Source: Symmachiella macrocystis (GTDB taxonomy: Bacteria > Planctomycetota > Planctomycetia > Planctomycetales > Planctomycetaceae). Taken from it: a stretch of 64,000 bases of DNA. Position numbers and translations under genes: made by a program. The stretch's first letter is position 1. Each line of letters begins with the position of its first letter. The notes under the pieces are model-generated. The model searched no databases. It saw only the letters and a program-made list of their open reading frames with translations, and was not told the origin of the DNA. Location: positions 620,001 through 684,000 of the forward strand of contig NZ_SJPP01000001.1 in the NCBI RefSeq assembly GCF_007860075.1, read 5' to 3'. Shown piece by piece: positions 9,642 through 26,498 of this stretch.

Positions 9642-10238
9642 ATCTGTGTCCCTTCGTGAATCGGGTGTCATGCCAGTCCGGCGGCCAACATCTCCGCCGG
9701 GATTAGGGCAGTCAGTTAACTCGTTTGGCGACGGACCTCCAGCGCTGTATGGCAGGTATTTCCACAAAATCGGGTTCACGCGAGAACCGTATGAAGCAGT
9801 CGCTGTTTGGTCCGTGGTGAAGAGCGCGGATTTCGCCCAGACGTTAATGCTGCGGTTGGCGGGCGCTGCCACATCGGCCGATCCTTGTCGCGTACGGCCC
9901 CCGACCTATTTTTTTCTCTGAAGCTCGACAGGCCTTATCACGGCAAAGGGTTAAGGACGGGTTCGAAAGACGTGAAATGGTGGGTGCGGTTTTGTGGCGT
10001 TGGCTTGTATTTGCATCGGCAGTTCTCAAACACTTTCGCGGCTCTATTGCACAACGTATGCAAATGCACTTAAATGACACCACAGGGCTGCCCTGCTGGA
10101 GGTCCATGCCGAGCGTTTAAACTTGGCCGGGTCTTCACTGGTAACGACAGACGTCGGTTAAGCAGCGCGTCACTCAATTTCAGATTTCGATATTGGCTCA
10201 TCGCACACACGCAAATCACTCTTTGAATTCAACGAATC
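9642..10238. other. Intergenic region upstream of the metal-handling operon
   Basis: About 600 bp without a supported gene; the frames present are shadows. It contains the operator-promoter at 10047-10075 and, 30 bp to its left (about 10010), an extra half-site TTTGCAT. The leader from the predicted transcription start (~10082) to the GTPase start codon is about 155 nt. I saw no convincing riboswitch fold in it. Confidence 0.5.
10047..10075 (+). promoter_or_regulatory. Palindromic operator within promoter, site A (COG0523 operon)
   Basis: A 7-3-7 imperfect palindrome TTGCACAACGTATGCAA (10047-10063) overlaps a sigma-70-like promoter: -35 TTGCAC, exactly 17 nt, -10 TTAAAT (10070-10075). The same arrangement recurs at 15169 and 17411. 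A repressor bound here would cover the -35 box and spacer. Regulator unknown; the metal genes suggest a metal sensor (inference). Confidence 0.65.
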
Positions 10239-11519
10239 ATGACAGAAATACCAAACACAGCATCCCTTCCACGTCTCCCGGTCACCGTGTTGAGCGGGTT
10301 CCTTGGTGCTGGAAAGACGACTTTGCTCAACCACATCCTGGCAAACCGCGACGGCATTAAAGTCGCCGTGATCGTCAATGACATGAGCGAAGTCAATATT
10401 GACGCGACTCTGGTTCGCGACGGGGGGGCCAACCTGTCGCGAACCGATGAGCGACTTGTGGAAATGACCAATGGCTGCATCTGCTGCACGTTGCGCGAGG
10501 ACTTGTTGATCGAGGTGTCTCGCTTGGCCCGGGAGAATCGCTTTGATTATCTGCTGATCGAATCGACGGGGATCAGCGAGCCGATGCCCGTGGCAGAGAC
10601 GTTTACTTTCGAAGATGAAGAGGGGCATAGCCTGTCGCAGGTTGCGGATCTCGACACAATGGTGACCGTGGTCGACGCTGGCAGTTTCATGGACGATTTT
10701 GGCTCGTGGGATGATCTCGCCGCTCGACGTATCGGCCTTGACGAAAACGACCAACGGAACATCGTTGACTTGCTCGTCGATCAAATTGAATTTGCCAATG
10801 TGATTGTGATCAACAAAAGCGACTTGGTATCACCTTACGCTCAGGAGCAACTCAGCAGATTGATCGGCCGGCTCAATCCGTCGGCGAAAATACTTGTCAC
10901 GAGCGAAGCGCGGGTTGAATTGACTGAGATCTTAGGAACCGGTTTGTTTTCGATCGCGGACGCTGAGGCCGCTCCGGGATGGCTGAGCGTTCCTCGAGGC
11001 CAGGAAGAGACCGAGACGGAAGAGTATGGGATTGCCAGTTTTGTCTATCAATCGCAACGTCCGTTCCATGCTCAGCGTCTCTCGGATGCGCTGAGTGCCG
11101 GTTCAGAGTTTGGAATGTTCGATGGAGTGCTCCGCAGCAAGGGAATGGCATGGATCGCTTCTAGGTACGATTGGGCTTACAGCTGGTCGCAGGCTGGATG
11201 CTCGATTCGTTTGGACCCGGTGGGCTACTGGTGGTTTACTGCGCCCGATGACGAATGGCCCGAGGAACCCGAGGAAATCGAAGCGATTCGACGAAATTTC
11301 GTGGGGACTTACGGCGACTGCCACCAGGAGCTTGTTTTTATCGGCAACGAAATGAATGAAGCGCGAATTCGCGAAACCCTTGATCGCTGTCTTCTGGATG
11401 ACCAGGAGTTCAATTCAGGACCGGACGTTTGGGCGCAGTTCGAGGATCCATTTCCTGCCATTGAGTTGGAGCCAATGGAGGACGATGAAGGAGAGTTGAT
11501 TGGGGAGGTTGAGCAATGA
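10239..11519 (+). CDS. COG0523 (CobW/ZigA-type) metallochaperone GTPase
   Basis: 426 aa. G3E-family P-loop GTPase that passes metal to client proteins: Walker [16 protein letters not shown] at residues 21-35, the metal-binding CxCC motif [11 protein letters not shown] near residue 79, [15 protein letters not shown] after it, and NKSDLV (guanine specificity) near residue 192. The C-terminal CobW_C domain ends in an acidic tail, with [22 protein letters not shown] as in zinc-type members. Zur-regulated members deliver zinc under starvation; the metal here is inferred. It is first in an operon and overlaps the next gene by 4 bp (ATGA). The start ATG at 10239 has a weak ribosome binding site. The operator at 10047 likely controls it. 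Confidence 0.9.
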
Positions 11520-12640
11520 CGGAAGAAGACGTGCATTTGTTTGATGTACTTGTCATTGGAGCCGGTGCGGCTGGGGTCGGAGTCGGGGTGGCCTTAAAGC
11601 ATGCCGGTATCGATAACTTTCTGATCCTTGATCGCTACCAAGTCGGCGCTTCGTTTGAACGCTGGCCGGAAGAGACCCAATTCATCACCCCGTCATTTCC
11701 TACAAATTCGATCGGGATGTTAGACTTGAACTCGGTCGCGATCGGCGTATCGCCGGCCTACAGTTTGGGAGTGGAACATCCGACAGGAAAAGAGTTCGCA
11801 GCGCATTTGTGCTCGGTCGCTGCGGTTTTCGAACTCCCTGTTTGCAAAGACGCGGAGGTGCTGCAGGTAAAGCGTTTCGACGATTGCTTTCTGGTTGAAA
11901 CAGCCGAGCATACGCTGCGTTCGAAACTTGTAATCTGGGCCGCGGGCGAATTTCAATATCCTCAAGCGAAACCTTTTCCCGGAGCAGAACTGTGTAGGCA
12001 CACAGCGACGATCCCGAGCTACGAAGATCTAGACGGAGATGACTTTATCGTCATCGGAGGCTACGAGTCTGGAGTCGACGCCGCGTATCATTTGTCCTGT
12101 TATGACAAACGCGTTCGACTGATCGACGCCGGGTGTCCCTGGGAAGATGAAACCTCGGAACCGAGCGTTGCCCTTTCCACCTTTTCGCTTGAGCGAATGC
12201 AGGCAGAGTGGTTCGAAGCGCAAACGGAACTCATTCCGCACTGCCCAGTCAGCAAAGTCTTGCGAGACGGCGACAAATACCAGGTCCATGCTGCGGGGGG
12301 GCTATTATTTGAGTCTCGCTCCGCCCCCTTGCTGGCGATTGGCTTTGAGGGAAGTTTGCGCCTCGTGTCGGATTTGTTTGAAAAGCGCGAGGATGGATAT
12401 CCGCTGTTGAGTGAACAAGACGAGTCGACAGTCACACCCGGACTCTTTTTGTGTGGACCCGCGGTGCGACATGATCATCACGTGTTTTGCTACATCTACA
12501 AGTACCGCCAACGTTTTGCTGTGGTGGCCAAGGCGATTGCCACGCAGTTGGGATTACCGGCAGAAGAACTCGAAAACTATCGCAAGTGGGGCATGTATCT
12601 AGATGATTTATCGTGCTGCGGAGAAGAATGCGTATGTTAG
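11516..12640 (+). CDS. FAD/NAD(P)-binding oxidoreductase (YpdA/FMO-like) with Cys-rich tail
   Basis: 374 aa. Two dinucleotide-binding motifs: [21 protein letters not shown] at residues 11-31 (FAD) and [17 protein letters not shown] near residue 180 (NADPH; third Gly position changed). [19 protein letters not shown] is the stretch seen in YpdA/CzcO-like flavoproteins. The C-terminus closes with CCGEECVC, four Cys in eight residues, a plausible metal or disulfide site. Enzymes of this group reduce low-molecular-weight disulfides or act as single-component oxidases; the substrate here is unknown. Its 4-bp overlap with the COG0523 gene and 7-bp overlap with the FeoB-like gene imply coupled translation and a role in the same metal pathway, perhaps keeping thiol ligands reduced (inference). 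Confidence 0.8.
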
Positions 12641-14319
12641 AAGTCGTATCAAAACCGCCAGTCAAATCTGTCGTCGTGATCGGGAGTGAAAGCGTCGGCA
12701 AATCGCAGCTGATATCGTCAATGACCGGTTGCTTGGCGGGTGAGTCGAATTTTCGCGGGTCCACTGTGTCGGTCCAACGTTACCAGTCCGATGGAGTGGA
12801 ATACATTGACACCCCGGGCATTCTTCGCAAATCAGACACGGATACCACGTGCCGGGCACTGGCAGAGCTTGGACAAAACGACCTGGTCATGCTTGTCGTT
12901 CGGGCGACACACCTTGATGACGAATTGCTGGAGATGTTACCGCTGGTCCAAGGCAAGCAGGGCATAGTCGTCGTAACGTTCTGGGACAAAGTCCAGTTGG
13001 GCGAAGCCGCGATGGAAGCCATAGAGCGGTTGTCGCGCGATGCGGGGGTCGCCTTTGTGACCGTCGATGCGCGCGAATTGAAGTTGAAAAACTGTGAGAG
13101 ACTCAAACAGGAGTTGTGCAGTCCGCGGCTGTTTACAAAGAGCGCACTGGCGTCGCGCGCGGGTTGGCGCATCGAGCCTAAGCCTGGATGGATGGAGTCT
13201 CCTGGGGTGGGACCGATCCTCGCGATGGCTCTGCTGTTCTTGCCGGCATTGGCAACGATCTTTGTTGCGAACCGATTTGCGGATTGGCTTCATCCCGTGG
13301 TTGAAGGATGGATGGAGCCGCTGAACGCGTCTATCAACACGAACGCTCCCGCATGGGTGCGACAGGTGCTGATTGCAGAGCACGCAAACGTTGGCTATGG
13401 CTTGCTGAACATGGGGCCTTTTTTATTGGTCTGGGCCTTGCCGACAGTTCTCATGTTTTCCTTGATTCTCGCACTGTATAAATCGAGCGGATTGATTGAA
13501 CGGATGAATGTCGCCATCCATCCTCTGGTTCGCCCCTTTGGCCTGAGCGGACGGGATGTTGTGCGAGTTATGATGGGCTTCGGCTGCAATGTGCCGGCCG
13601 TCATTAGTACGCGTTCGTGTTCCGGTTGTTCGCGTGGTGCGGCGATTTCCGCAATCGCGTTTGGGGCTGCCTGCAGTTATCAACTTCCCGCAACCATCGC
13701 CGTTCTCGGGGCGGCGGCGCAGCAAAACGGAACAAGTTCCCTCCTGCTCTGCAGCATTTTCCTGGGGTACTTATTAGCGACAACCTTGATTTATCTGCGT
13801 TGTACCTCCGGTGCCCAAGCGCGCAACTCGTTGAACGTTTTAATGACACCCAGTCGTCCGTTCATGCAATTCCCGACTGTGGCAGCCTTATGGCGAGAAG
13901 CGCGGGCAACGATACAACAGTTTTTCCTGCAGGCTTTGCCGGTGTTCGCGCTAATTTGTGTGATCGCCTCACTCTTTGTGAATATTGGGGTCCTGGACGC
14001 GCTGTCCAGTTGTATTGGCCCGGTGATGGCCGTTTTTAACTTGCCTGCTGATGCTTCACTCCCGGTTGTCCTGGCCTCAATTCGCAAGGACGGAATCTTT
14101 TTGTTTGCCGGCGACCAAGGATTGGCCATGCCGTTGACTTCCGCCCAGACTCTCACAGCTGTCTATCTCGCGGGCGTTTTACTTCCCTGTCTTGTGACCG
14201 CGTTGACCATCGCCAGAGAAACCAACTGGCGACGCGCTGGTCTGCTCTTATTACGCCAAGCAAGTTTTGCCGTCATTTTCGCATTGGTGCTTGCTTGGGG
14301 AGGGCCGTGGGTACTGTGA
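12634..14319 (+). CDS. FeoB-like GTPase-coupled metal transporter
   Basis: 561 aa from the ATG at 12634 (GGAG 10 nt upstream; GTG at 12613 and ATG at 12628 are alternatives). The N-terminal G domain has SESVGKSQLISSM (P-loop) and YIDTPG (DxxG). The base-specificity box reads TFWDKVQ instead of NxxD. The membrane part carries two Gate (nucleoside-recognition) domains: GFGCNVPAVISTRSC, as in FeoB's GCNVPA segment, and a C-terminal LLPCLVTALTIARETNWRRAG. At 561 aa it is about 200 aa shorter than E. coli FeoB. Known FeoB proteins import Fe(II). Its place beside a COG0523 GTPase suggests iron or another divalent metal. Inner membrane; the G4 box deserves a test. Confidence 0.82.
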   Translation: MLEVVSKPPVKSVVVIGSESVGKSQLISSMTGCLAGESNFRGSTVSVQRYQSDGVEYIDTPGILRKSDTDTTCRALAELGQNDLVMLVVRATHLDDELLEMLPLVQGKQGIVVVTFWDKVQLGEAAMEAIERLSRDAGVAFVTVDARELKLKNCERLKQELCSPRLFTKSALASRAGWRIEPKPGWMESPGVGPILAMALLFLPALATIFVANRFADWLHPVVEGWMEPLNASINTNAPAWVRQVLIAEHANVGYGLLNMGPFLLVWALPTVLMFSLILALYKSSGLIERMNVAIHPLVRPFGLSGRDVVRVMMGFGCNVPAVISTRSCSGCSRGAAISAIAFGAACSYQLPATIAVLGAAAQQNGTSSLLLCSIFLGYLLATTLIYLRCTSGAQARNSLNVLMTPSRPFMQFPTVAALWREARATIQQFFLQALPVFALICVIASLFVNIGVLDALSSCIGPVMAVFNLPADASLPVVLASIRKDGIFLFAGDQGLAMPLTSAQTLTAVYLAGVLLPCLVTALTIARETNWRRAGLLLLRQASFAVIFALVLAWGGPWVL

Positions 14320-15035
14320 TTGCCAAACAAAATCAAGGACTCTCCTCAAATGTTGCGCGAACGGATTTCCCGAACAACAACCTCGCGCTGGGGCAGAATA
14401 CATCGAGGCTCCCGCACTTTCTAAATACGAGTTCCAGTGAAATTCCGCGGCAACTCCGCACCCACGCAGCAGATCTGCTTAGCCAACAGTGCTGGTGCTG
14501 GGGGCAGGATATTCTGAGAGCGGAAGGGAACTGGTTGCTGGAATTGGGCTTCAAACGCATCAGACCGCCGAAGAAACGGAAAGACTGCTCAAGCGTCTAT
14601 CAGCTTGAGCTTAGTGGCGGACAGTCTGTAGTCCTGCGCGGATTTGGTGTTTTCTTCGGTGATCGTGCGCGGGGAGGCGTCTTTCTGCCGCGATACGAAT
14701 TCACGCCCCGTTTCACGTCTCAGTTTCCCTTGGTTTCCCCCCCTTGGTCGACCTCGGACTTGCCAGCGCTCTGGACACCTACTGGCGATGATCTCAGCCT
14801 CTGTGCCAAACTGACACTCGATCTGATCGATTGGATTCGCAGTTATGAGGTCAACGTGATCCGTTGCCTGGGCTTGGAGTACCGCCAAGCCACACTGTCA
14901 GAATGGCAAGACGACAAGCGAAAGTTTTTTCCCGCCGAGCAATTCGCCTCAGCCTGGCGCGAGCTTTCGCTGCAGATTGCAGGACACTCGGAATCCTTGA
15001 TTTCAGCGAAGACCGAATCAGCAACGCCCCCATGA
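14316..15035 (+). CDS. Hypothetical protein, last gene of the COG0523/FeoB-like operon
   Basis: 239 aa if the GTG at 14316 is used (GTGA overlap with the FeoB-like stop). No family recognised. It looks soluble, with no signal peptide or membrane segment, and is rich in Trp and aromatic residues: CWCWGQDILRAEGNWLLELGF, then a beta-rich middle (QSVVLRGFGVFFGDRARGGVFLPRY) and a helical end. The RYEFTP and PPWSTSDLP segments may form a conserved core. Coupled translation with the transporter suggests a partner or regulator of it. An alternative start is the GTG at 14307, nearer to a GGGAGG. Confidence 0.6.
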   Translation: MIAKQNQGLSSNVARTDFPNNNLALGQNTSRLPHFLNTSSSEIPRQLRTHAADLLSQQCWCWGQDILRAEGNWLLELGFKRIRPPKKRKDCSSVYQLELSGGQSVVLRGFGVFFGDRARGGVFLPRYEFTPRFTSQFPLVSPPWSTSDLPALWTPTGDDLSLCAKLTLDLIDWIRSYEVNVIRCLGLEYRQATLSEWQDDKRKFFPAEQFASAWRELSLQIAGHSESLISAKTESATPP

Positions 15036-15168
15036 TCGCGGTACCGAATTGCGGACTTCTACGCTCGCTCCGTCGCGGATAAATCCTTCGAGATCACCCG
15101 CGTCCGCTGCATTCGGTGAAGTGCGTTCCACGGTCCGGAACTCCAGCCGCAATTTGCGCGGCCCCGTA

Positions 15169-15197
15169 TTGCATACGTTATGCATGTCAGCTATATT
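15169..15197 (+). promoter_or_regulatory. Palindromic operator within promoter, site B
   Basis: Best copy of the shared palindrome: TTGCATACGTTATGCAT (15169-15185), arms TTGCATA and TATGCAT around CGT. It overlaps a promoter with -35 TTGCAT, 17 nt, -10 TATATT (15192-15197). A further half-site, ATTTGCATATG, starts at the -10 box. Downstream lie a short frame at 15268 and the prepilin-peptidase homologue at 15359. Confidence 0.65.
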
Positions 15198-15267
15198 TGC
15201 ATATGTACTCCGAACATACTTATCTAAGCAGTTTATGCGTAAAGGAAATCTTGGAGACAAAGCCGAC

Positions 15268-15402
15268 ATGGATTCATTCCGTATCAATCTCGACGCACTC
15301 GGCGGACGGCTTTCTACCGTAGATTCTGGCACAGCGGCGACATCGCGGAGACAAGACAGTGACGATCAACGAAAACTATCGCACAACCTCGTGCCTCGAT
15401 AG
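15268..15402 (+). CDS. Possible small protein upstream of the prepilin-peptidase homologue
   Basis: 44 codons from the ATG at 15268 (MDSFRINLDALGGRLSTVD), with GGAG about 11 nt upstream, inside a longer frame that lacks signals. It overlaps the next gene's start at 15359 and could be a leader peptide coupling translation. No homology is recognised; chance is a fair explanation. Confidence 0.25.
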   Translation: MDSFRINLDALGGRLSTVDSGTAATSRRQDSDDQRKLSHNLVPR

Positions 15403-16972
15403 GCATCGATGTCTCTTGCATCGCTACCTGCTGGGCCAATACCTGGCAATGGTATTGATGGTCTCTGCGAGCTTTGTAGCGGCCGTTTGGGCCACGTGGG
15501 ACTGGCAATCCCCGGTGGGCACGATCGCACCATTGGTCAGCGTGTGGATCATCTGCCGCGCTGCTGGCCTATTTTCCGGCCAGTGGTTTGCTCCGCTAAT
15601 CACTGCAGCAAGTGCATTTGCCGTTTTAGCTGTGCGAGATGTCCACGTGGTCGAACCGCTTGCCGAACCGATCGTTTTCGCGCCAATCGCCTTGCTTGTG
15701 ATGCTTGCATTGATCTTTGCCATCGACGTGGTCGAAAGCGCGCAATCATTGTCTTGGATTCATGTGGCGAGTCGCCTGAGAAGGCAGAACTGGCTGCGAC
15801 TGGCGGTTTGGGGGCTCGGGGCTGGGATTGTTCTCTATGTCGTCGCGATGCCGGTCGGAGACTGGATTATCGATCAAATTTATCCCCCGAAATCCGGTCG
15901 CATTCTCGAAGACATGACGCTCGGACAACAAGTGCGGTTTCGCGGTTTCGAAGTTTTCTGCGCGCTGGTTTTTTGTGTTTTCGGCGCGACGATTGGGAGC
16001 TTCCTCAATGTCGTCGCATATCGGTTGCCGCGCAGGGAGTCGGTTGTATTCAAAAGTTCTCATTGCCCGAAATGTGGGGTTAAGATCGAAAGTCGCGACA
16101 ATGTACCGATCATCGGCTGGCTTCGCCTAGGCGGACGCTGCCGCGCATGTCAATCGTTGATTTCAATGCGGTACCCAATCGTCGAGTCAATTTCCGCCGC
16201 GTTCTTCCTGGTGATGTACTTTGTCGAGCTCATTTCGGGGGGTGCGAATATCCCCGTTCGACATCCAAACATCTATCATGGCCCCTTGTGGATCATTTTC
16301 TATCCGAAATGGGATTTGATTGGGTTGTATCTGTATCATTGTTTCGCTTTCTGCATTCTGTTGGTGTACGCACTCATCGACATCGACCGTCAGCGACTAT
16401 CGACACGCGTTAAATGCTGTATTGCATCTGCACTGATTCTTCCGCCGATGATCTGGCAGCACTTGTTGCCGACTCTTAGTCTCTCCTTCGCCTCGAGTTT
16501 GTTCCAAAACGCGTCGCTACAGGCGGGCGTCACTTGCTTGACGGGCTGTCTCGTTGGAATGGCTTTGGGCTGGCTGACGGCATGGGGAATTTATTCGACC
16601 GCGGAGGAGGATGAATACTCTTCTTCGCGAGCCCAATTCGCAGGTTGCCTGTCTGTTGTTGGAATTTCACTCGGCTGGCAGGCAGTCGTCGCGGTCACTC
16701 TCTGTACGCTGTTGTTAATGTTCGGTGCCACTTTGTTCGCTCGATGGCAACATTGGCCACTGCCACAACTAAGCCCCTTGTTACTAGCGGCGTTTGTTCT
16801 CCAACTTTGCTTGTGGAGATGGACCACCCAGCATCCGTCCAATTGGTGGCCCAGCGATAGGATGCTCGCAAGCGGATGGGCTGCCATAGCCGTCGGTTAT
16901 GTCGTACTGCTGTTGGCCAACCGCTTGGCAGTTCGGCAACGGCAACAGCAATGGGTTGGGCACGGACTTTGA
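15359..16972 (+). CDS. Prepilin peptidase-like membrane protein (A24 family, second Asp motif missing)
   Basis: 537 aa from a GTG at 15359 (GGAG 8 nt upstream). About 12 hydrophobic segments. The peptidase-A24 N-terminal domain is well kept: GSFLNVVAYRLPRRE at residue ~213, a zinc-type CPKC...CRAC pair (residues ~236 and ~262) with NVPIIGWLRLGGRCRACQS, and RYPIVES. The first catalytic Asp region is present as YALIDIDRQRL (residue ~336). The second catalytic motif GxGD, expected about 14 residues before LGWQ, reads RAQF here, so the second Asp is lost. It has ~200 extra residues at the N-terminus. A bona fide prepilin peptidase is doubtful. It lies between two metal-operon blocks behind the shared operator. 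Confidence 0.75.
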   Translation: MTINENYRTTSCLDRHRCLLHRYLLGQYLAMVLMVSASFVAAVWATWDWQSPVGTIAPLVSVWIICRAAGLFSGQWFAPLITAASAFAVLAVRDVHVVEPLAEPIVFAPIALLVMLALIFAIDVVESAQSLSWIHVASRLRRQNWLRLAVWGLGAGIVLYVVAMPVGDWIIDQIYPPKSGRILEDMTLGQQVRFRGFEVFCALVFCVFGATIGSFLNVVAYRLPRRESVVFKSSHCPKCGVKIESRDNVPIIGWLRLGGRCRACQSLISMRYPIVESISAAFFLVMYFVELISGGANIPVRHPNIYHGPLWIIFYPKWDLIGLYLYHCFAFCILLVYALIDIDRQRLSTRVKCCIASALILPPMIWQHLLPTLSLSFASSLFQNASLQAGVTCLTGCLVGMALGWLTAWGIYSTAEEDEYSSSRAQFAGCLSVVGISLGWQAVVAVTLCTLLLMFGATLFARWQHWPLPQLSPLLLAAFVLQLCLWRWTTQHPSNWWPSDRMLASGWAAIAVGYVVLLLANRLAVRQRQQQWVGHGL

Positions 16973-17501
16973 GGGGCGCGCGGTCCAAAAACTAATGAGG
17001 AACGGTAGTCGAACACCAAAAGAGGTTCGCGAGACAAACAGGTGGAAGAACTGTTGTCGGCAGTGAGCGTAATTGGCGACGAAAATGATTTCGATTCGGA
17101 CGGATTTCAGGCAATAGGCTCACGGCGTTCGCGGCGGATGATTCTTCGAGTACTGTGGTGTTGTTCTCGGGTGGCGAGTCGGCGCGCGACTGATCGACGA
17201 ACGTGCCGCCATTTTGTCTTGTTGGCTCTTGGCCATCGTTCCTACGAACACGGAAACGTCCCGTTGTCTTCTGGTCGTCCATGACGGCACCTCGCCTGTT
17301 TCTCTCAAGTGAAAGAACCCCGGATAAATTCCCAGTCTCTCCTATTACAAATATCGCGCCAATCGAAAAACAGAAAATGCACTCTCTATTTATTTGTATT
17401 AGACATGGAATAGCAATTCGTATGCATATGTGGTAGAATGGGAAGACTGAGATGTCTGCAAGAAACCACCCTGGCGCGCAGCTTGCTCTGCCAAAAACTG
17501 C
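16973..17501. other. Intergenic region upstream of the permease/SPFH/ATPase operon
   Basis: About 530 bp. A 173-aa minus-strand frame (16992-17513) and short plus-strand frames exist but show no family feature, signal or ribosome binding site that I trust. The right end holds the operator-promoter (17411-17439) about 60 nt before the permease start codon. Confidence 0.45.
17411..17439 (+). promoter_or_regulatory. Palindromic operator within promoter, site C (permease/SPFH/ATPase operon)
   Basis: TAGCAATTCGTATGCAT (17411-17427) is the most degenerate copy of the shared palindrome: the right arm TATGCAT is intact, the left is TAGCAAT. The promoter geometry is identical: -35 TAGCAA, 17 nt, -10 TAGAAT (17434-17439). 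The predicted start, ~17446, gives a 55-nt leader before the permease. Confidence 0.6.
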
Positions 17502-19049
17502 ATGTTGGTCCAATTTCCGACTTTCGAAGCCTTGATTGTGACGTTTCTCGTCACTGCTGCCCGAACGATTCTTGAAGCGTCGCCAACCATTCTCGGGGGT
17601 GTCGTAGTAGCGGCCTGGTTGCGGACGCTGGCGACACCGGAGCGCATGAAGGTCATTTTTCGTGGCGAGGGCTATCAGGGTGTGCTGCGGACGGTGTTGG
17701 TTGCCATGACCCTGCCTGTCTGCTCGATCGGAGTCCTGCCTGTCTTACGGGAATTGCGTCGGTTGGGGCTTCCGAACAGCAAGCTGATCATTATCGCACT
17801 CGTCGCTCCTCTGCTTAACCCGATCTCTGTGTTATATGGACTGGCTGTGCTGAGCGCGGCACAGGTTGTATTGATCGCTGTCTCATCCGGTATTCTGGCG
17901 ATCACCCTGGGCGACGTCAGTTCTCGTTTCGCCATCAGCAGCCGAATCGCCGCCGCGGACTTGCCCGCAGGCCTGACTGGCGCGACTCGATTACGAAACC
18001 TATTGATTGCGGCGGGGCGGATCGTGACGAGTTGGACCGCACTGGACTTGATGATTGTCATCGTGGTTTCGGGATTGGTGGCCTCTCTGATTCCTAATGG
18101 AACCTTCCGTGATGTCTGCGATCCAGCTAACCGCGGGGGCCCTTTCATCGCTTCTCTGTTAACGCTTCCTCAATATGTGGGACCGGCGCGCGGGATCATA
18201 CAGTTTTCGGCCATTGACAGGATCAACCAATCCATTCCAACGGGATTGGTCATCTATGTCTTTGGAGTGAGCGTCAGTGCCGGGATGGTTCTCTTGTTAA
18301 ACCGGTGGTATGGCTTGCGACGCATGATGGCCTTGGCAGTGGCTATATTTCTGGTCGTGTATGCAGCTGCGTACACATCAAGTGTCCTTATTCACACACC
18401 AAATGGAAGCGTCGATGAGACAGACGCTCTGGATGGTCTGACGAGGCCTACGAAATTGACATTCGCACAACTCGGAGGGGCGATCACGGAATCCATTACG
18501 TTCAATGATCCATTGATTCTGTTAGGGACTGTATCGCTTTTGTTACTCACCCCGGCTGGAGTGTTCATTCGAATGGCAAAGGTCGGCTACCGTGATGACG
18601 ACCCTGAGGCGGTAATCCGAGCGGGCGCCGGGCGAATGTCGAAAGCCGTTCCTGCGTCTCAACTCGGAGCCATGGCAGTTTGCGGCATGGCAGTTTTCTT
18701 CTGTTTTGCAACTTATATCTTCCTTCCCAGTCCGAGCGAATGCTTGAAAGAGATGCAGGCGATTGAGATGGATGCAAATCTTGCGATTCGTGGTAGGAAG
18801 GCCAGCTTGGCGATAGAGCTAATCAATGCCTGGGATTCCATGGCAGCGAAATTGCCGATCAGTTCAGCTGTATACTTGTCTTTTCCAACCCGGTCGCAAA
18901 GGCAGGCGACTCGCGATTTACGAATGGCACTGCACAACATGGGAGTCTTTCTAAGGGATGGCGATATGGTTTCGGCGCGAAAGAAGTTTCCCGATCTTTC
19001 GCGACTGCTTACCGAAACAGAAGACAGCTTTAAGGGGACATTGCCATGA
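17502..19049 (+). CDS. ArsP/DUF318-type permease
   Basis: 515 aa, many membrane helices. The family signature of PF03773 permeases is clear at residues 64-90: VLVAMTLPVCSIGVLPVLREL, with the conserved Cys in PVCS that binds metal or arsenical in ArsP-like members, then APLLNPISVLYGLAVL. Relatives export trivalent organoarsenicals or take part in Cu/Zn efflux. A soluble C-terminal ~110-aa tail (from ECLKEMQAIEMDANLAIRG) is unusual and may meet the SPFH proteins. It overlaps the next gene by 4 bp (ATGA), the first of four coupled downstream genes. Expected in the inner membrane as an efflux or export channel. The substrate metal is not readable. Confidence 0.8.
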   Translation: MLVQFPTFEALIVTFLVTAARTILEASPTILGGVVVAAWLRTLATPERMKVIFRGEGYQGVLRTVLVAMTLPVCSIGVLPVLRELRRLGLPNSKLIIIALVAPLLNPISVLYGLAVLSAAQVVLIAVSSGILAITLGDVSSRFAISSRIAAADLPAGLTGATRLRNLLIAAGRIVTSWTALDLMIVIVVSGLVASLIPNGTFRDVCDPANRGGPFIASLLTLPQYVGPARGIIQFSAIDRINQSIPTGLVIYVFGVSVSAGMVLLLNRWYGLRRMMALAVAIFLVVYAAAYTSSVLIHTPNGSVDETDALDGLTRPTKLTFAQLGGAITESITFNDPLILLGTVSLLLLTPAGVFIRMAKVGYRDDDPEAVIRAGAGRMSKAVPASQLGAMAVCGMAVFFCFATYIFLPSPSECLKEMQAIEMDANLAIRGRKASLAIELINAWDSMAAKLPISSAVYLSFPTRSQRQATRDLRMALHNMGVFLRDGDMVSARKKFPDLSRLLTETEDSFKGTLP

Positions 19050-20908
19050 CCAATCAGCTTCCGGGCGAACCGGAACCTCGGTTGAATCAGGTCCCGCATC
19101 GGGAATTGGATACCGAATCGAGCGAACCTTCAGACGTCTCCATGCTGCAAAAAGTATTTTGGTGCGTGTTGTTTGCGGCCGGAGCTTCTTTCTTCTACGC
19201 ATTGAAGATCGAGTCAAGTCTGTTTCGTGCCGCTGCTCTCCAACTGTGCCTGTGTGGTGTGGCCGTTTGGGCAGCGATGGACGCCGCGAAAATTCGCCGC
19301 AGATTAGGCGCCTCCCGCGACGAAGATGCCGTGGCATTGAATCGCGAAGCCGCAGCGATACATTACCTGTACGTCGCCGCGCCTCTGGTGGCGATTCTCG
19401 TGTTGGCCGGACTCTCGATGATCGGACAACTCGTAGAAGTTTCCCTGCCTCGGTCGCAACAGCAGGTCATTGGTGGTGCGATCATTGCCGTGCTGGCAGC
19501 GAGCTTATGGACGGTTTTCGCGCGCGCCTTAAAACTGCATGTCCATCCGACAACACAGCAAGGCTCGCCGAGGCTGCCGGAACTTTTGGCGGTTCGAGCG
19601 GCACTTTCTGAGTCACGTCTCGCCGCGTTGCTGACCGGCGGAACCCTGATGGCGGCCACCGTCTATCCACCAATCGAAGGCTGGTTTGCGTGGGGATTGA
19701 GTCTATGGGTGATCGCCGTCGCAAGTGAGCAATTGATCTACGTGTTCGCCGGTTGGTTTCGACCGATCAAAGCGCATGAGACGTTTACCTCCCCGGTTAA
19801 TTCAATTCTGCTCGAGATATTTCTTTCGAGTACCAACCCGGTGGGGAAACTGTTCGATATTGCCGAAGCGCGTTTCGGACTGAGCCTGCGTTCGTCTTGG
19901 ACAATCCGGTTTTTTCGGCGGTCGGTGTTCCCGATTGCGGCGGGCTGCCTGTTGGTCGTTTGGCTTTCGACCTGTTTTGTCGTCATCGAACCCCAACAGG
20001 CCGGACTGGAAGAACGCTTCGGCAGACCACAGCCGGTACGACTGCAACCGGGCCTGCACACCAAGCTGCCGTGGCCGTTTGGAGTCATACGCAGATACCC
20101 GGCGGGCATTGTGCAGACGATGCAGATTGGATTCGAAGAAAAAGAAGCCGAGGCCGTCGTCTCGGAAGATTCGGGACGGACGCTACTGTGGACCCAACCT
20201 CATGCGCAAGAGTTTTCGCTCGTGCTGGGATCAGAAACTGAGTTGGTTGCAGTGAACGCGATTGTGTATTTCAAGATTGCCGAGAATACCAAGGGATTTC
20301 TTGATTATGCCCTCTACTCGGCAAACCCTGAAGTGGCATTGGAGTCGCTGGCGTATCGCGTCCTCATGGAACAAACGCGCGTTGCGACACTGGCAGATTT
20401 GCTGTCTCGTGGGAGGGATCAATTTGCCGAGGAGGTCCGTGAGAAACTGAGCGAATACTCGGTAACTGAGCGATTGGGCTTGGACGTGATCGATGTCGCT
20501 TTAATCAATCTCCATCCACCGGTCGAAGTCGCGAGCAGCTACCTGGACGTCATCAATGCGGGGCTGGACAGCAACCGCGCCATTACCGAGGCCAAGGGCG
20601 AAGCGGCCAAGCAGATCCTCGAAGCGGAACAGGAAAGCAATGGACGTCTCGCCGCTGCCAAAATCGAAGCGGCCAAACGGGTCTCGCTTGCCGGACAGGA
20701 GTCCGCAGAATTTATCGCAGTTGGCGAAGCGTTCACCGCAACACCTGACACGTATCGACTCCGAATCTGGTTTGAAGCAATTGAGCAAGTGCTGTTTGGG
20801 CGACGCTTGTTTATTGTGGACTCGGAACTTCCCGATGTCATTCTTGATGAGCGTTCCCGTTCGATCAACCCCGTATTGATCGAATCCACAAAACCACCGA
20901 CTCCCTGA
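19046..20908 (+). CDS. SPFH/HflK-like protein with a multi-helix N-terminal membrane domain
   Basis: 620 aa. Unlike classical HflK (one membrane anchor), about six hydrophobic segments precede the SPFH domain (residues ~30-75, 108-165, 190-235, 292-312). The SPFH domain starts at ~311 with VVIEPQQAGLEERFGRP, LQPGLHTKLPWPF and LVLGSETELVAVNAIVYFKI, and goes on into a coiled coil rich in Glu/Ala/Lys (NRAITEAKGEAAKQILEAEQ). HflK and HflC form a large periplasmic cage around FtsH; SPFH proteins in general organise membrane domains. Here it is coupled by ATGA to a permease and followed 15 bp later by an HflC-like gene. It may scaffold the transport proteins of this operon (inference). Confidence 0.85.
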   Translation: MTNQLPGEPEPRLNQVPHRELDTESSEPSDVSMLQKVFWCVLFAAGASFFYALKIESSLFRAAALQLCLCGVAVWAAMDAAKIRRRLGASRDEDAVALNREAAAIHYLYVAAPLVAILVLAGLSMIGQLVEVSLPRSQQQVIGGAIIAVLAASLWTVFARALKLHVHPTTQQGSPRLPELLAVRAALSESRLAALLTGGTLMAATVYPPIEGWFAWGLSLWVIAVASEQLIYVFAGWFRPIKAHETFTSPVNSILLEIFLSSTNPVGKLFDIAEARFGLSLRSSWTIRFFRRSVFPIAAGCLLVVWLSTCFVVIEPQQAGLEERFGRPQPVRLQPGLHTKLPWPFGVIRRYPAGIVQTMQIGFEEKEAEAVVSEDSGRTLLWTQPHAQEFSLVLGSETELVAVNAIVYFKIAENTKGFLDYALYSANPEVALESLAYRVLMEQTRVATLADLLSRGRDQFAEEVREKLSEYSVTERLGLDVIDVALINLHPPVEVASSYLDVINAGLDSNRAITEAKGEAAKQILEAEQESNGRLAAAKIEAAKRVSLAGQESAEFIAVGEAFTATPDTYRLRIWFEAIEQVLFGRRLFIVDSELPDVILDERSRSINPVLIESTKPPTP

Positions 20909-20923
20909 ACAGAAATAGAATCA

Positions 20924-21979
20924 GTGAACGACAAACAACATTCCGATGCGAGCAGCAAGCCTCCAAGTCGCATGTTAGCCGTCCTTTTCAATTTAGGATT
21001 TGCACTGATTTTGGTGACGATTCTAATCGGCTATGCCTGTTATTTGCAGGTGCGGGAAGGGACTGCTGTCGTGGTGACGCGTTTCGGCGAGCCTGTGCGG
21101 TCCATCACGGAGCCTGGCCCCTACTTCAAACTTCCCTGGCCGATCGAAGACACGCGGAAATTCGACATGCGAAAGCGAGTCTTCAACACGCCCTATACAG
21201 CCACGCTGACTCGTGACCGGCGCAATGTCGTGTTGCTGACGTATGTGGTCTGGCGTATCGCTGATCCTCAGTTGTTTCTGCAGTCGGTCGGCGATGAAAC
21301 AGCGGCATCCGCCAAGCTGGACGGGATGGTTACAGCGGCCAAGAATACGCTCATGGGTCGCTATGATCTTTCGGCACTTGTCTCGACCGCCCCGGAGCAG
21401 ATTCAAACTCCCGAGATTGAATCTGCGATTGTCGGGGAAGTGCAGGGTATTGCTGCGGAGAAATTCGGCATCGACATCGAACAGGTTGGATTCAAGCGGA
21501 TTGCATACGAGCAAGCCAACGTCGCCGCTGTGTTGGCACAGATGCGAGCTGAGCGTGTCGCCGAGGCCAAGCAACTCCGCGCCGTGGGTGACAAAGAATC
21601 ACGACGGATCCGCGACGACGCGGCAGTCAAGAGTGAAGAGACTCTGCGCGAAGGTCGGCTGATTGCCGGTCAAATACGCGGCGAAGCCGAACGCGCGGCC
21701 GCCGAAATTTATGCCAAAGCGCATCGCACCGATCCGGAGTTTTACCGCTACTGGCGCTCGCTTGAGGCGCTCAAGAAAACACTCAGCCAAGACGCGACCG
21801 TTGTGCTCCGCACGAACCAGGGCTTCTTTGACTTACTGACCGATCCTCCCGAGACGCCCAGACCAACCGGCCGGAAGCGACCGGCGGCCAAGAAAACCAC
21901 ACGCAAGACCGGTCGCGTTTCCGATTTAGACGACTCGAACAGCTCACGCGGCCCTCGACGTGGAGCCGGCGATGAGTGA
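20924..21979 (+). CDS. SPFH/HflC-like protein
   Basis: 351 aa from a GTG at 20924. A single N-terminal membrane helix (LFNLGFALILVTILIGYACYL) leads into VREGTAVVVTRFGEPV, TEPGPYFKLPWPIEDTRKFD and DRRNVVLLTYVVWRI, the HflC pattern. A Glu/Ala/Arg-rich coiled coil follows (AERVAEAKQLRAVGDKESRR), then the conserved HflC tail YRYWRSLEALKKTL and TNQGFFDLL. It ends with a basic extension (GRKRPAAKKTTRKTGR). Length and order fit HflC (~330 aa). In E. coli HflC with HflK modulates FtsH. Here the gene overlaps the following SPFH gene by 8 bp, so production of the set is stoichiometrically linked. Confidence 0.88.
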   Translation: MNDKQHSDASSKPPSRMLAVLFNLGFALILVTILIGYACYLQVREGTAVVVTRFGEPVRSITEPGPYFKLPWPIEDTRKFDMRKRVFNTPYTATLTRDRRNVVLLTYVVWRIADPQLFLQSVGDETAASAKLDGMVTAAKNTLMGRYDLSALVSTAPEQIQTPEIESAIVGEVQGIAAEKFGIDIEQVGFKRIAYEQANVAAVLAQMRAERVAEAKQLRAVGDKESRRIRDDAAVKSEETLREGRLIAGQIRGEAERAAAEIYAKAHRTDPEFYRYWRSLEALKKTLSQDATVVLRTNQGFFDLLTDPPETPRPTGRKRPAAKKTTRKTGRVSDLDDSNSSRGPRRGAGDE

Positions 21980-23111
21980 GCGACCTCCGAGAATGACTGA
22001 CGATGATGCGAGCGATGATGGCTTCGTTCCGCCGCACGTGCCCCTACGACCGCGGCGTGAGGACCGTTTCTCGATGGCTGAGGGGGTTCGTGCCGGATCG
22101 AAAATGATCGGCTGGCTGGCACTTGGACTCTTCGCCCTGTTCTGGTGTTCGGGAATCACAACTATCGGGCCGGGCGAAGTGGGGCTGGTGCTGCGATGTG
22201 GCCGCCTGACCGGATCATCACCGGTTGATCAAGTACAGCAGTCGGGATTGTTACTCGCTTTGCCGTATCCGATAGACGAAGTGATTCGGGTGCCGGTCAA
22301 ACAGGAGCGTGAAATTGTAATCAACGCACTCCGCAGCGAACTGAACAATCCAGGCGCGATGACAGGACAAGGTTTACCTGGGTACGCCCTTTCCGGAAAC
22401 CAAAACATCGTCGAAGCCGACATCACACTGAAGTATCGAATTAGCGATCCGATTGCCTACACGTTTTCCAATCGTGAGCCAGAGCGAATTCTCCGCGATG
22501 CTGTCATCGGAGCCGCCGCCGAATTGATTGCTCAATGGAAGGTTGATGATGTCTTGCGGTTGCAGCGTCAGACAGAGCTTGGACCGGAAAAGCTGGCGCA
22601 CGTCGTGCTTGTCGATGCGCAGGCGCTCATTGATTCCATGAACCTGGGAGTCGAACTGACGGCGGTTGAGTTTCGAGAGATTCAACCGCCCGCCGAGGTG
22701 GCCGACGCTTTTCAAGCAGTGCAAAGCGAACGGATTGCGATTGAAACGAAAAAACGCGATGCGGAAGGCTACGCGGCTCGCATCGTTCCGGCAGCAGAAG
22801 CCGAAAGCAATTCGCTGATCCAACAGGCCACACGCCGGGCGACGGACCAGCGGACTCGAGCAGAGGAAGAAGTCGAATTGTTTAATCGAGTGCACGGGGA
22901 ATATGTTCGTAATCCGGGACTGGTTTGGAACCGGCTACACCTGGAGACGATCGAAGGCCTGATGAGGGATGGCGGGCAGTTCCAATTCGTCGATTCCGGA
23001 ACCCGGCTCGTGCTCACTTCTGGCAGTCGCGGCGAAAAAACACCCGGAACACAGACCGAGCCAACCCAGCCCACCGGCGGTGACTCTGGCGCGTTGGAGG
23101 TTCAGCCATGA
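21972..23111 (+). CDS. SPFH/HflK-like protein, third member of the set
   Basis: 379 aa from the ATG at 21972 (the frame opens at a GTG at 21960). A hydrophilic N-terminal ~45 residues rich in Asp/Arg/Pro is typical of HflK, then one membrane helix (MIGWLALGLFALFWCSGI), IGPGEVGLVLRCGRL, QSGLLLALPYPIDEVIRVPV, NIVEADITLKYRISDP and the coiled-coil stretch IETKKRDAEGYAARIVPAAE. The tail is Thr/Gly/Pro rich. It overlaps the HflC-like gene by 8 bp and the P-type ATPase gene by 4 bp. So this operon encodes one HflC-like and two HflK-like proteins, one more than the standard pair. No ftsH gene is nearby. Confidence 0.88.
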   Translation: MSERPPRMTDDDASDDGFVPPHVPLRPRREDRFSMAEGVRAGSKMIGWLALGLFALFWCSGITTIGPGEVGLVLRCGRLTGSSPVDQVQQSGLLLALPYPIDEVIRVPVKQEREIVINALRSELNNPGAMTGQGLPGYALSGNQNIVEADITLKYRISDPIAYTFSNREPERILRDAVIGAAAELIAQWKVDDVLRLQRQTELGPEKLAHVVLVDAQALIDSMNLGVELTAVEFREIQPPAEVADAFQAVQSERIAIETKKRDAEGYAARIVPAAEAESNSLIQQATRRATDQRTRAEEEVELFNRVHGEYVRNPGLVWNRLHLETIEGLMRDGGQFQFVDSGTRLVLTSGSRGEKTPGTQTEPTQPTGGDSGALEVQP

Positions 23112-25063
23112 GCACCGTTTCCACTCCGGTTGCCCGACGAATTCAAGAGGATCTTGATGCAGGGATGACACGTGGCGAACGAATTCGCCTCGGTCTTCGC
23201 ATCGGAACCGCAATGGCAGCTGGCGTCTTACTCGCGTCGGCAACTGCCGTCGATTCTCTGTTTCCCATTGAACAAAGGCCAATTTCTGAATGCTTAAAAG
23301 CCGCCGCCGCGATACTCGTGCTGCTGCCAATTCTTAGGGAGGCAGCCCAGGGTTTGCTCACCGGCTCGACAGACGCCTACAGCGCTCAGCTGGTCGCGAT
23401 CGCTTCGCTTGCCGCACTCGCAATTGGCGACTTTGTGACCGCCGCAATCATTCCGATCATCCTCAGCGTGGCTTTCTTTTTAGAAGAACGGAGCGTGCTT
23501 GGTGCCCAGGCAGCCATCGAAGGTTTGAAATCATTGCAGGCCAGAAAAGCCCGTCGTGTTGATGGCCAGGGAGTCGAGCACGAAGTCGACACAGAAGATT
23601 TGTTGCCCGGCGATCTCATCGTCATTCGTCCTGGGGAAACAATTCCTGCCGACGGAGAGGTCGCCGAGGGCTATTCGGCCATTGACCAATCGACCATAAC
23701 CGGTGAATCCACTCCGCAAGACGTGGGGCCTGGAGCGAAACTGTTCGCCGGAACCGTGAATCATAACGGTCTCTTACAAGTAACAGTCAGCAGTGCGGGG
23801 GATAACTCGACCCTGGGAAAAATTCTTGAACTTCTCCATGAAGCGGAACAATCCAAGACCGAGGTTCTCCGCTTAATTGAGGATTATGCCAAATATTTTG
23901 TGCTCGGCGTTTTGCTGATTGCGGGAATTAGTCTTTTCCTCAGCCGGGATGTCTCTCGTGCAATCGCCGTCCTTGTGGTCGGCTGCCCCGGTCCTTTTAT
24001 CCTCGCAGGCCCAGCCGCCATGGTCGCCGCCCTGGCAGCAGCGACGCGGAAAGGAATTTTGATCAAGAACGCAAAGTTCCTTGAGACTCTGACGGAAGTC
24101 GATGCGGTGATCTTCGACAAGACCGGGACGGTCACGCTCGGTCAGTTGAAAGTGCTTTCGGTCGCTACCCACGACTCGACTGAATCGGAATTGCTCGAGG
24201 CTGCCGCGACGTGTGCAAACGTATCACAGCACCCCGTTTCGAGAGCAATAATCACTTTTGCTCAAGCCAAAGATGTGCCCGCGATGTCCAACCAGATCAA
24301 GGCTCAAGAGATGCCCGGTCGAGGGGTCATTGTTGATACCGAGCAGGGACAACTCCTGCTGGGACGTCGTGCGTGGATTGGTGAATCGGGATTCGATTTG
24401 CCTGATGAACCCGAGCATGCGGGGCCGATCGTTTGGGTCGCCACTCGCAATGAATCACAAACTCGGTGCTTAGGTGCCATTCTTCTTGCGGACCAAGCCC
24501 GTGAGGATGCCAAGCAGGTCATTGAGGACCTGCGGCAGATGGGGGTCATGCGAACGACGCTGCTGACGGGAGACCGACTAGCGGTTGCCGAGAAAATCGC
24601 TGCCGATGTTGGGCTGGATCATGTCGTTGCAGAAGTTTTGCCGGGACACAAGCGTGAAATCGTCCAAGCCGAACGTCAGGCTGGCTATCAGGTGATGGTG
24701 GTCGGTGACGGTGTCAATGATGCTCCCGCTTTGGCTGGCAGTGACATTGGCGTGGCGATGGGAGCTTCTGGTGCGGAAATCGCCTTGCGAAGCGCCGACG
24801 TTGTGTTGATGACCGAGCGACTCGATCGTTTGACTTATGCCATCGACCTTGCCCGACGCACGCGACGGACAATTCACCGCAATGTGATCGTCGGTGTGGG
24901 GCTGACAGTCGTCATGCTGGCGCTCGCTTCCACCGGAGTGATTTCACCGATCGCTGGAGCAGTCTTACAAAATATTGGTGAATTGTTTGTCATCGGAAAC
25001 AGTGCCGCATTGCTTCGTGACCGCCAACTCCAGGCGTCTAATGAGGCGCGTAGAATGCCTTGA
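23108..25063 (+). CDS. P1B-type (heavy-metal) translocating ATPase with CPG site
   Basis: 651 aa; no N-terminal metal-binding (HMA) domain. All pump motifs are present: TGEST (~200), DKTGTVT (phosphorylated Asp, ~336), SQHPVSRAI (HP motif, ~375), VVGDGVNDAPAL (~534). The transmembrane metal site, normally CPC, SPC, TPC or CPH, reads GCPGPFILAGPAAM (~291). In the last helices the HD/HE-type ligand of zinc pumps is replaced by AVLQNIGELFVIGNSAAL. The signature therefore predicts unusual metal coordination. It would export a soft or transition metal from the cytoplasm using ATP. It is translationally coupled (ATGA) behind three SPFH genes and ends at a GGTTCAA/TTGAACC stem-loop repeat. Confidence 0.9.
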   Translation: MSTVSTPVARRIQEDLDAGMTRGERIRLGLRIGTAMAAGVLLASATAVDSLFPIEQRPISECLKAAAAILVLLPILREAAQGLLTGSTDAYSAQLVAIASLAALAIGDFVTAAIIPIILSVAFFLEERSVLGAQAAIEGLKSLQARKARRVDGQGVEHEVDTEDLLPGDLIVIRPGETIPADGEVAEGYSAIDQSTITGESTPQDVGPGAKLFAGTVNHNGLLQVTVSSAGDNSTLGKILELLHEAEQSKTEVLRLIEDYAKYFVLGVLLIAGISLFLSRDVSRAIAVLVVGCPGPFILAGPAAMVAALAAATRKGILIKNAKFLETLTEVDAVIFDKTGTVTLGQLKVLSVATHDSTESELLEAAATCANVSQHPVSRAIITFAQAKDVPAMSNQIKAQEMPGRGVIVDTEQGQLLLGRRAWIGESGFDLPDEPEHAGPIVWVATRNESQTRCLGAILLADQAREDAKQVIEDLRQMGVMRTTLLTGDRLAVAEKIAADVGLDHVVAEVLPGHKREIVQAERQAGYQVMVVGDGVNDAPALAGSDIGVAMGASGAEIALRSADVVLMTERLDRLTYAIDLARRTRRTIHRNVIVGVGLTVVMLALASTGVISPIAGAVLQNIGELFVIGNSAALLRDRQLQASNEARRMP

Positions 25064-26027: not shown

Positions 26028-26498
26028 TCAACTTACAGTTGGAAGATGGGCGATGCGAATGAGACGGGTGCTGTCTTCTCCGCGCTCTAGAGTGTCGATC
26101 CAATTCATTTGCTGCCAGTGATATCGGATTTGTATGCGAGGAATCGTTCCTGAAAGGAGCGATTCTAATGCCTTGCGAAGTTGTTCTGCGATCGTTGCCC
26201 GTGAAGCCGAAGCACGCTGTGAACCTGGCGCGCGCTGCATAAGTAGAATGTCAGAAGCAAGGACTTCGATGTCATTGAACAGCTGCCGCACCTGTTCTTC
26301 AGACAAGAAAGCTTCGCGCATCGGAGGCAGTTCGGACAGGTCCATGCCGTCATGGTTGACCGGCTGTGGAACGGGCTGCAGGTTGTGCGATTGGTCACCC
26401 ATTGAGTGTTCGTCGCGCTCGTCAATTTTTTCCGGATCCGCGCGGTAAGGTCGCAACCGAAACCAGTCTCGGCGCGACATCTTGTTATCGTTTGCCAT
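26028..26498 (-). CDS. Hypothetical protein at the end of the nap operon
   Basis: 156 aa from the ATG at 26498, overlapping the end of the napB-like gene by 14 bp. Soluble, no signal peptide: N-terminus MANDNKMSRRDWFRLRPYR, a middle rich in Asp/Glu/Pro and a helical second half (FLSEEQVRQLFNDIEVLASDI), ending in RIQIRYHWQQMNWIDTLERG. I recognise no named family. Overlapping translation makes a role in nitrate reductase assembly or regulation likely (inference). The frame extends upstream to 26708, but that part overlaps napB and lacks a start signal. Confidence 0.65.
   Translation of the reverse strand: MANDNKMSRRDWFRLRPYRADPEKIDERDEHSMGDQSHNLQPVPQPVNHDGMDLSELPPMREAFLSEEQVRQLFNDIEVLASDILLMQRAPGSQRASASRATIAEQLRKALESLLSGTIPRIQIRYHWQQMNWIDTLERGEDSTRLIRIAHLPTVS

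Follow-up and report, generated by a model that had tools for sequence, protein, structure and literature searches.

The subject of this analysis is a gene block in a 64,000-nucleotide stretch of the Symmachiella macrocystis genome (contig NZ_SJPP01000001.1, positions 620,001 to 684,000; phylum Planctomycetota), referred to below as the window. The block encodes an HflK-like SPFH protein (K1), an HflC-like SPFH protein (C), a second HflK-like SPFH protein (K2) and a P1B-type ATPase, and in the window it is preceded by a gene for an ArsP-type permease. Comparison with related loci established that K1-C-K2-ATPase is a widespread, co-inherited SPFH-P1B ATPase module. We favor the interpretation, at a probability of roughly 0.6, that its products constitute a zinc-starvation pump housed by a dedicated SPFH assembly of three subunits.

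Gene Content of the Block

Ten open reading frames (ORFs), all on the plus strand between positions 10239 and 25063 of the window, fit the gene description in an earlier note on this DNA, which had been made from the sequence alone and had proposed SPFH scaffolds coupled to a metal pump. The ORFs and their Pfam and NCBIfam matches bore out the content and order given there for the last five genes: an ArsP_1 family permease (17502-19049; ArsP_1, E = 4.6e-13), K1 (19046-20908; Band_7, E = 1.1e-13), C (20924-21979; Band_7, E = 1.3e-22), K2 (21960-23111, or from an ATG at 21972; Band_7, E = 1.1e-19) and the P1B ATPase (23108-25063). ArsP and K1 overlap by 4 bp, K1 and C are separated by 15 bp, C and K2 overlap by 20 or 8 bp depending on the K2 start, and K2 and the ATPase overlap by 4 bp; the previously reported spacings of 4, 15, 8 and 4 bp match these coordinates if the ATG at 21972 is used.

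K1 carries a W-x3-H motif, and several membrane helices are predicted at its N-terminus. The NCBIfam cut-off for hflC was passed by C (145.6 vs 134.4), and that for hflK (159.4) was missed by both K1 (98.4) and K2 (133.5). The pump has the E1-E2 and Hydrolase domains and the DKTGT, HP and CPx motifs of a P1B ATPase and exceeds the cut-offs of TIGR01525 (511.1 vs 346.25) and TIGR01512 (444.7 vs 313.5); no HMA domain was detected, CPG replaces CPC, and the locus is of the HmtA type. As had been claimed, no ftsH gene is near the locus; the genome has two matches to M41 peptidases, at C2:175780 and C1:4366716.

Co-Inheritance of the SPFH Genes and the Pump

A K2 query against 297 genomes of the class gave 24 matches besides that in its own genome. 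At all 13 loci where K2 was at least 38% identical (L046 and L119-L130), the order was K1-C-K2-ATPase, and ArsP preceded K1 at 12 of them, the thirteenth (L129) stopping at a contig edge. The other 11 matches had 28-31% identity; among four of these that were examined, one (L131) was a gene fusion of the type described below and three (L132-L134) were HflK/HflC-like pairs with no ATPase match. Elsewhere in the phylum, L047-L049 carry the block without ArsP and L244-L245 have the same order; the contig of L050 starts inside the ATPase gene, which placed this locus outside the counts. Two tandem ArsP-like permease genes were seen 5' of K1 in L123 (4994-8327).

The ATPase was also used as query against 149 genomes of the phylum, of which 40 matched (its own included) at E values up to 1e-100, and 30 loci were kept. 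SPFH genes were present at seven (L009-L013, L031 and L035). At the remaining 23, the search covered 1.5 kb or ran to the edge of the contig and detected no SPFH gene; the same test had overlooked L035. One SPFH query, that from L131, contained ATPase sequence, and rows matching that query alone were scored as having no SPFH gene. Because these 23 loci lacked a detected SPFH gene and their ATPases fall outside the module clade in the tree, P1B genes in general do not come with SPFH neighbors.

The block also extends to a second phylum. A scan of genome contigs with a C alignment found at least 393 relatives, and the loci analyzed were the best 80, from Enterobacteriaceae and their kin, Rahnella and many Pseudomonas. 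All 80 of these Pseudomonadota loci had K1, C, K2 and the ATPase in order, and none had a match to the window ArsP. A neighborhood comparison of the kind that the earlier note had recommended showed an arrangement not confined to this genome.

Searches by tblastn and the stretches fetched from them placed the block on plasmids of Klebsiella aerogenes, Rhizobium tumorigenes, Paraburkholderia sprentiae, Burkholderia ubonensis and R. lusitanum (where it is unannotated). These five plasmids carry K1-C-K2-ATPase without ArsP. The Klebsiella K1 matched 10 plasmid records when used as query, and two of four typed records were conjugative. Occurrence on such elements is what would be seen if the genes were a mobile block travelling together by chance, with adjacency and no joint function. 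We consider this highly improbable and rank it low, as the same order and many of the 4-bp overlaps have been retained despite strong divergence and fusions of the two components exist. On the conjugative Klebsiella aerogenes plasmid, a Tn3-family transposase gene and an aminoglycoside phosphotransferase gene were noted a few kb from the module (L039:5672-18617).

Phylogeny of the Module and an ATPase-SPFH Fusion

The ATPase tree comprised 84 sequences and was rooted at its midpoint. Short pieces had been dropped, and Pseudomonadota contributed 11 of their 80 loci, the remaining sources a subset of theirs. In this tree the 31 module ATPases were on one side of a branch with a Shimodaira-Hasegawa-like approximate likelihood ratio (SH-aLRT) support of 100. 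L035, labelled as SPFH-less within that clade, was found to carry the module when a wider stretch was considered. The window ATPase shares a clade with the pumps of Pseudomonas citronellolis and Pseudomonas delhiensis.

A tree of 63 SPFH proteins, in which the comparison set was four HflK and four HflC proteins, E. coli included, resolved K1 (97/89), C (96/85) and K2 (100/99) as clades that each unite both phyla. All three are separate from E. coli HflK/HflC and from the pairs of L132-L134; C lies on the HflC side, K1 and K2 lie on the HflK side, and none is inside the HflK/HflC proteins compared. These results bear on the idea that the SPFH trio is a form of the FtsH modulator HflK/HflC for use in zinc starvation, active in protein quality control, with a pump that is merely co-regulated. 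The SPFH parts do score best on the hflK and hflC models, and the authors of PMC11761036 and PMC9431628 interpret the corresponding Pseudomonas aeruginosa genes in this way in the passages available from those papers (as for all literature cited here). Set against this are the clades apart from the HflK/HflC compared, the absence of a linked ftsH, the retention of the pump at all of the best 80 loci and the existence of an SPFH-pump fusion in another ATPase clade. We therefore rank this explanation low as well and regard it as distinctly unlikely.

The fusion is encoded in the same genome (C1:841656-844952) and is a 1099-residue protein with E1-E2, Hydrolase and Band_7 domains. It scored above the P1B cut-off and barely above that for hflK (159.6 vs 159.4). 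Its gene is followed by C-like and K2-like genes (L044:7320-12953, C1), a second SPFH-pump system in one genome. Among 294 sampled genomes of the phylum, two relatives were found, at L216 (47% over 1-1072) and L217 (41% over 62-946), and a further fusion is that of L131; the L217 stretch includes C and K2. The four fusion ATPases cluster elsewhere in the ATPase tree (support 92), and the W-x3-H motif is at the same aligned place in all four of their SPFH domains. SPFH proteins are joined to pumps in two ATPase lineages or more, in one of them by a gene fusion that has this W-x3-H motif as well. Hydropathy analysis predicted a membrane helix at 700-718 of a 1088-residue reading of the fusion, between the pump and the SPFH part, in agreement with the topology of HflK. 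Another pair of long SPFH proteins, with open frames of 549 and 599 residues, was observed at G000 C2:785262-787622.

The earlier note had suggested a membrane microdomain or cage around the pump. As the pairing is conserved and co-inherited, as no ftsH is linked to it, and as a fusion exists, it is sound to infer that the pump is housed in a scaffold or cage.

Sequence Motifs and the Metal Site

The W-x3-H motif was present in all 18 module K1 proteins and in all 73 further K1 proteins that passed a length filter, of 80. It was absent from the same aligned place in the four HflK proteins without a pump, E. coli included; W-x3-H strings occurred elsewhere in the sequence in 4/15 K2 and 1/15 C proteins. 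In a predicted model of K1 the motif sits in a poorly predicted loop (363-390). The best Protein Data Bank (PDB) matches to this model by Foldseek were chains of HflK/C-FtsH (9cz2 and 7vhq), with template modeling (TM) scores of 0.17 by whole-length query and up to 0.81 by target, the latter for the SPFH domain alone.

Many C proteins of Pseudomonadota may begin with a histidine-rich segment, at a frequency dependent on the start chosen. It was found at 67 of the 80 loci if the most upstream in-frame start was used and at 43 if counting was confined to the open stretch that follows the K1 stop, a stretch with no start codon at 28 loci; a filter for ATG starts retained 13 of the 80, none of them histidine-rich. 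The NCBI start of C takes in the histidine-rich stretch for L040-L042 and not for L039. None of the 11 C proteins compared from the phylum of the window had such an N-terminus.

At the metal site, CPC was found in 80 of 80 Pseudomonadota pumps, counted per pump, and in those of L047-L049 and L039, which are without ArsP. The window pump and those of all 12 ArsP loci had CPG, CPV or CPI, the pump in this one ArsP-gaining lineage being without the second cysteine. ArsP and CPC were never together among the loci compared; the L129 pump has CPG, and its ArsP side is beyond the contig edge. Loss of CPC and gain of ArsP may have been a single event, as the ArsP loci form one part of the tree.

Relationship to the hmtA Locus and to Zinc Starvation

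The earlier note knew of no described system with this composition, a claim that does not hold. In P. aeruginosa, PA2435-PA2439 encode HmtA, one HflK-family and two HflC-family proteins and are upregulated on zinc depletion (PMC4542158; see also PMC8531726). Judged by composition, order and a gene for a 165-residue protein, the Pseudomonas form of the window block is the hmtA locus. That gene is between K2 and the ATPase at 3 of the 80 Pseudomonadota loci (P. citronellolis, P. delhiensis and Pseudomonas sp. 30_B), where PA2436 falls by its number; its product (L182:5487-5984) had no Pfam match. Strain PAO1 was not among the best 80 loci.

The gene set is on record and hardly studied. PA2434, PA2435, PA2437, PA2438 and PA2439 were upregulated between 5.6- and 14.4-fold in a znuA mutant (PMC4542158), and proteins of the locus were raised in zinc-depleted cells (PMC11761036). 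N-acetylcysteine, which the authors take to be a zinc chelator, raised PA2437-PA2439 (PMC9431628), and Zur shifted the PA2439 promoter in vitro in an electrophoretic mobility shift assay (EMSA; PMC8531726). HmtA is reported to import zinc and copper (PMC8456098, PMC10393844), and the SPFH trio has been named PaFlo5-7 (PMC13086221), in a paper whose main text does not contain the term "ATPase". The terms HflK and P-type ATPase are absent from a COG0523 survey (PMC2770081) and an iron paper (PMC3377617), and no paper on the SPFH trio and pump as one machine was among the top literature matches.

Consistent with zinc control, a Zur-like box with at most three mismatches was found 5' of K1 at 46 of 85 loci (the 80 Pseudomonadota loci and the five plasmids), compared with 1.2% of mononucleotide shuffles, using a Zur consensus. 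In S. macrocystis itself, a Fur-family regulator adjoining a histidine-rich ZIP zinc transporter (L063:263-1989) is a candidate Zur.

It is also conceivable that the same complex exists and its pump exports zinc or copper for resistance, as other P1B ATPases and the mycobacterial PacL1-CtpC platforms do. P1B ATPases are usually efflux pumps, and import by HmtA has been flagged as needing confirmation (both PMC10393844); moreover, the cadmium-family model TIGR01512 is among those the window ATPase passes, and the N-terminus of ArsP is weakly similar to two models, SO_0444 Cu/Zn efflux (28.6 bits) and SaoE (34.9 bits), with both scores far under the cut-offs. Induction by zinc starvation and Zur binding in P. 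aeruginosa (PMC4542158, PMC8531726) argue against export, as do the Zur-like boxes and the presence of zigA, a gene for a probable zinc metallochaperone, in the window, in L119-L121 and at five of the best 80 Pseudomonadota loci, all Pseudomonas. Export is, in our assessment, unlikely, though it deserves serious attention.

Neighboring Genes and Candidate Operators

The five ORFs 5' of ArsP are also on the plus strand. The first (10239-11519) encodes a ZigA-like COG0523 GTPase, the probable zinc metallochaperone, which scored 591.1 bits against the ZigA equivalog NF038288, just under the cut-off of 600. It is followed by a flavoprotein of the Pyr_redox_3 family (11516-12640; Pfam), a FeoB-like GTPase-transporter (12613-14319; Pfam and NCBIfam) and a protein of unknown family (14295-15035), also encoded close to zigA in L119-L121, for which no Pfam family matched up to E = 10. 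These four assignments agree with the earlier ones; the fifth protein (15359-16972), previously called a prepilin peptidase homologue, is a membrane protein with the A24 N-terminal domain (A24_N) only (Pfam). Its gene is flanked by gaps of 323 and 529 bp, which suggests that the last five genes, ArsP to ATPase, are their own transcription unit. Membership of the A24_N protein in the system is doubtful, as judged by the lack of a match at related loci in the class.

The zigA cluster had been thought to belong with the pump, a view the comparisons did not uphold. Of the 12 other ArsP loci, three (L119-L121) had zigA within the fetched stretch and nine did not; genes for the flavoprotein and the FeoB-like protein were near only one (L121), and the A24 gene was near none. 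In L119 (9504-14024) and L121 (8243-11904), genes for a MoxR-type AAA ATPase and a transglutaminase-like protein are between the zigA genes and ArsP, the place of the A24_N gene in the window, and L119 has a DUF58 protein in addition.

The palindrome TTGCA-N7-TGCAA, a candidate operator for a Zur-like metal regulator, was found 5' of zigA (10047-10063), with a second 17-bp copy 5' of the A24_N gene (15169-15185). The shared operator of the earlier note was borne out in part, as a candidate site at these two genes; the case of ArsP is taken up below. The 7.57-Mb genome has three such sites with at most one mismatch, the third of which (L053) lies 57 bases into an ORF and was disregarded. No enrichment was seen genome-wide at two mismatches (18 sites vs 14 for the reversed pattern), the two sites were not significant within the window alone at three mismatches, and the strict pattern was absent from the G048 ArsP upstream region. 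Repeat families around the cluster were mostly at chance level, the inverted pair 10048/15169 being a useful exception.

Across the class, the palindrome with at most one mismatch was present in 7 of 30 zigA upstream regions (window included). The corresponding rates were 1.9% for dinucleotide shuffles and 1 in 90 for control stretches taken within and downstream of the gene start. As the pattern was picked after these regions had been viewed and the genomes are related, we regard this apparent excess as a lead. Upstream of ArsP, the palindrome was present at 2 of 12 loci in the class (L046 and L130).

Apart from the cluster, the minus strand of the window at 26485-29720 encodes a molybdopterin oxidoreductase-like protein and a CxxCH-rich protein, which by eye only, without a family search, resemble a periplasmic nitrate reductase pair.

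A Model for an SPFH-Housed Pump

We propose that a P1B pump of the HmtA kind would be situated in or under a ring of three HflK/HflC-like SPFH subunits at the outer face of the inner membrane. By analogy with HflK/HflC, the SPFH parts would be periplasmic and form a dome around the pump. Metal would be handled by the W-x3-H of K1 and, in part of the Pseudomonadota, by the histidine-rich N-terminus of C. The machine would be made under zinc starvation and would most likely move zinc (or copper) into the cell. In the lineage of the window, where ArsP has been added and CPG replaces CPC, the substrate or the route of the metal may have changed.

Several points weigh against this model. Contact between an SPFH protein and the pump is reported in none of the literature passages. 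The identification with HmtA is based on composition, order and the 165-residue gene. In P. aeruginosa, hmtA mRNA was low and unrepressed (PMC8531726); PMC10393844 excepts hmtA from Zur binding, contrary to the EMSA in PMC8531726; and deletion of paFlo5-7 (PA14_33070/33080/33110) had slight effects only, in passages without a zinc test (PMC13086221). The K1 model is of low confidence, with a mean predicted local distance difference test (pLDDT) score of 65 and a predicted TM (pTM) score of 0.42. The CPG of the window pump may indicate another substrate or a crippled site. The fusion SPFH part is outside the K1 clade and its own grouping is weak (74/45), and no C or K2 was detected beside the fusion in L246, the wider stretch around L216. 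Finally, there is no comparably good palindrome 5' of the window ArsP, the best having two mismatches to a shorter pattern.

We also speculate, more tentatively, that there may be a general class of caged P-type pumps, in which the K1-C-K2 dome encloses the periplasmic side of the P1B ATPase, loads or retains metal via W-x3-H, and thereby lets an enzyme of an exporter family import; possible as this is, we hold it to be doubtful. P1B ATPases are usually exporters, with HmtA the unconfirmed exception, and the SPFH trio at HmtA-kind loci in both phyla, together with the P1B-SPFH fusion, implies that testing the pump by itself may give an incomplete picture. If our model is correct, SPFH domes, few of whose clients are known, would gain a transport protein as a client of their own, and in cultivable bacteria.

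Comparison with Known Systems

The closest counterpart is the hmtA locus, PA2434-PA2439, which like the window has three HflK/HflC-family proteins and a P-type ATPase in one locus, in passages that do not treat them as one machine. Its Pseudomonas relatives have K1-C-K2-ATPase, three with the 165-residue gene inserted before the ATPase; unlike the window, the best 80 related loci have no ArsP and have CPC rather than CPG. The HflK/HflC-FtsH complex resembles the module in its HflK and HflC profiles and provides the chains closest to the K1 model, whereas the window has three subunits, N-terminal membrane helices in K1, and a pump gene in place of ftsH. In the mycobacterial PacL1-CtpC platforms, scaffold-like proteins similarly cluster and stabilize a P1B ATPase in the membrane, but PacL1 is a small DUF1490 protein that forms foci without flotillin, and the function is efflux (PMC9374683). 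Stomatin bound to aquaporin 1 (PDB 9zd2) is likewise a complex of an SPFH protein with a membrane transport protein, although in that case the protein is human and the partner is a passive channel.

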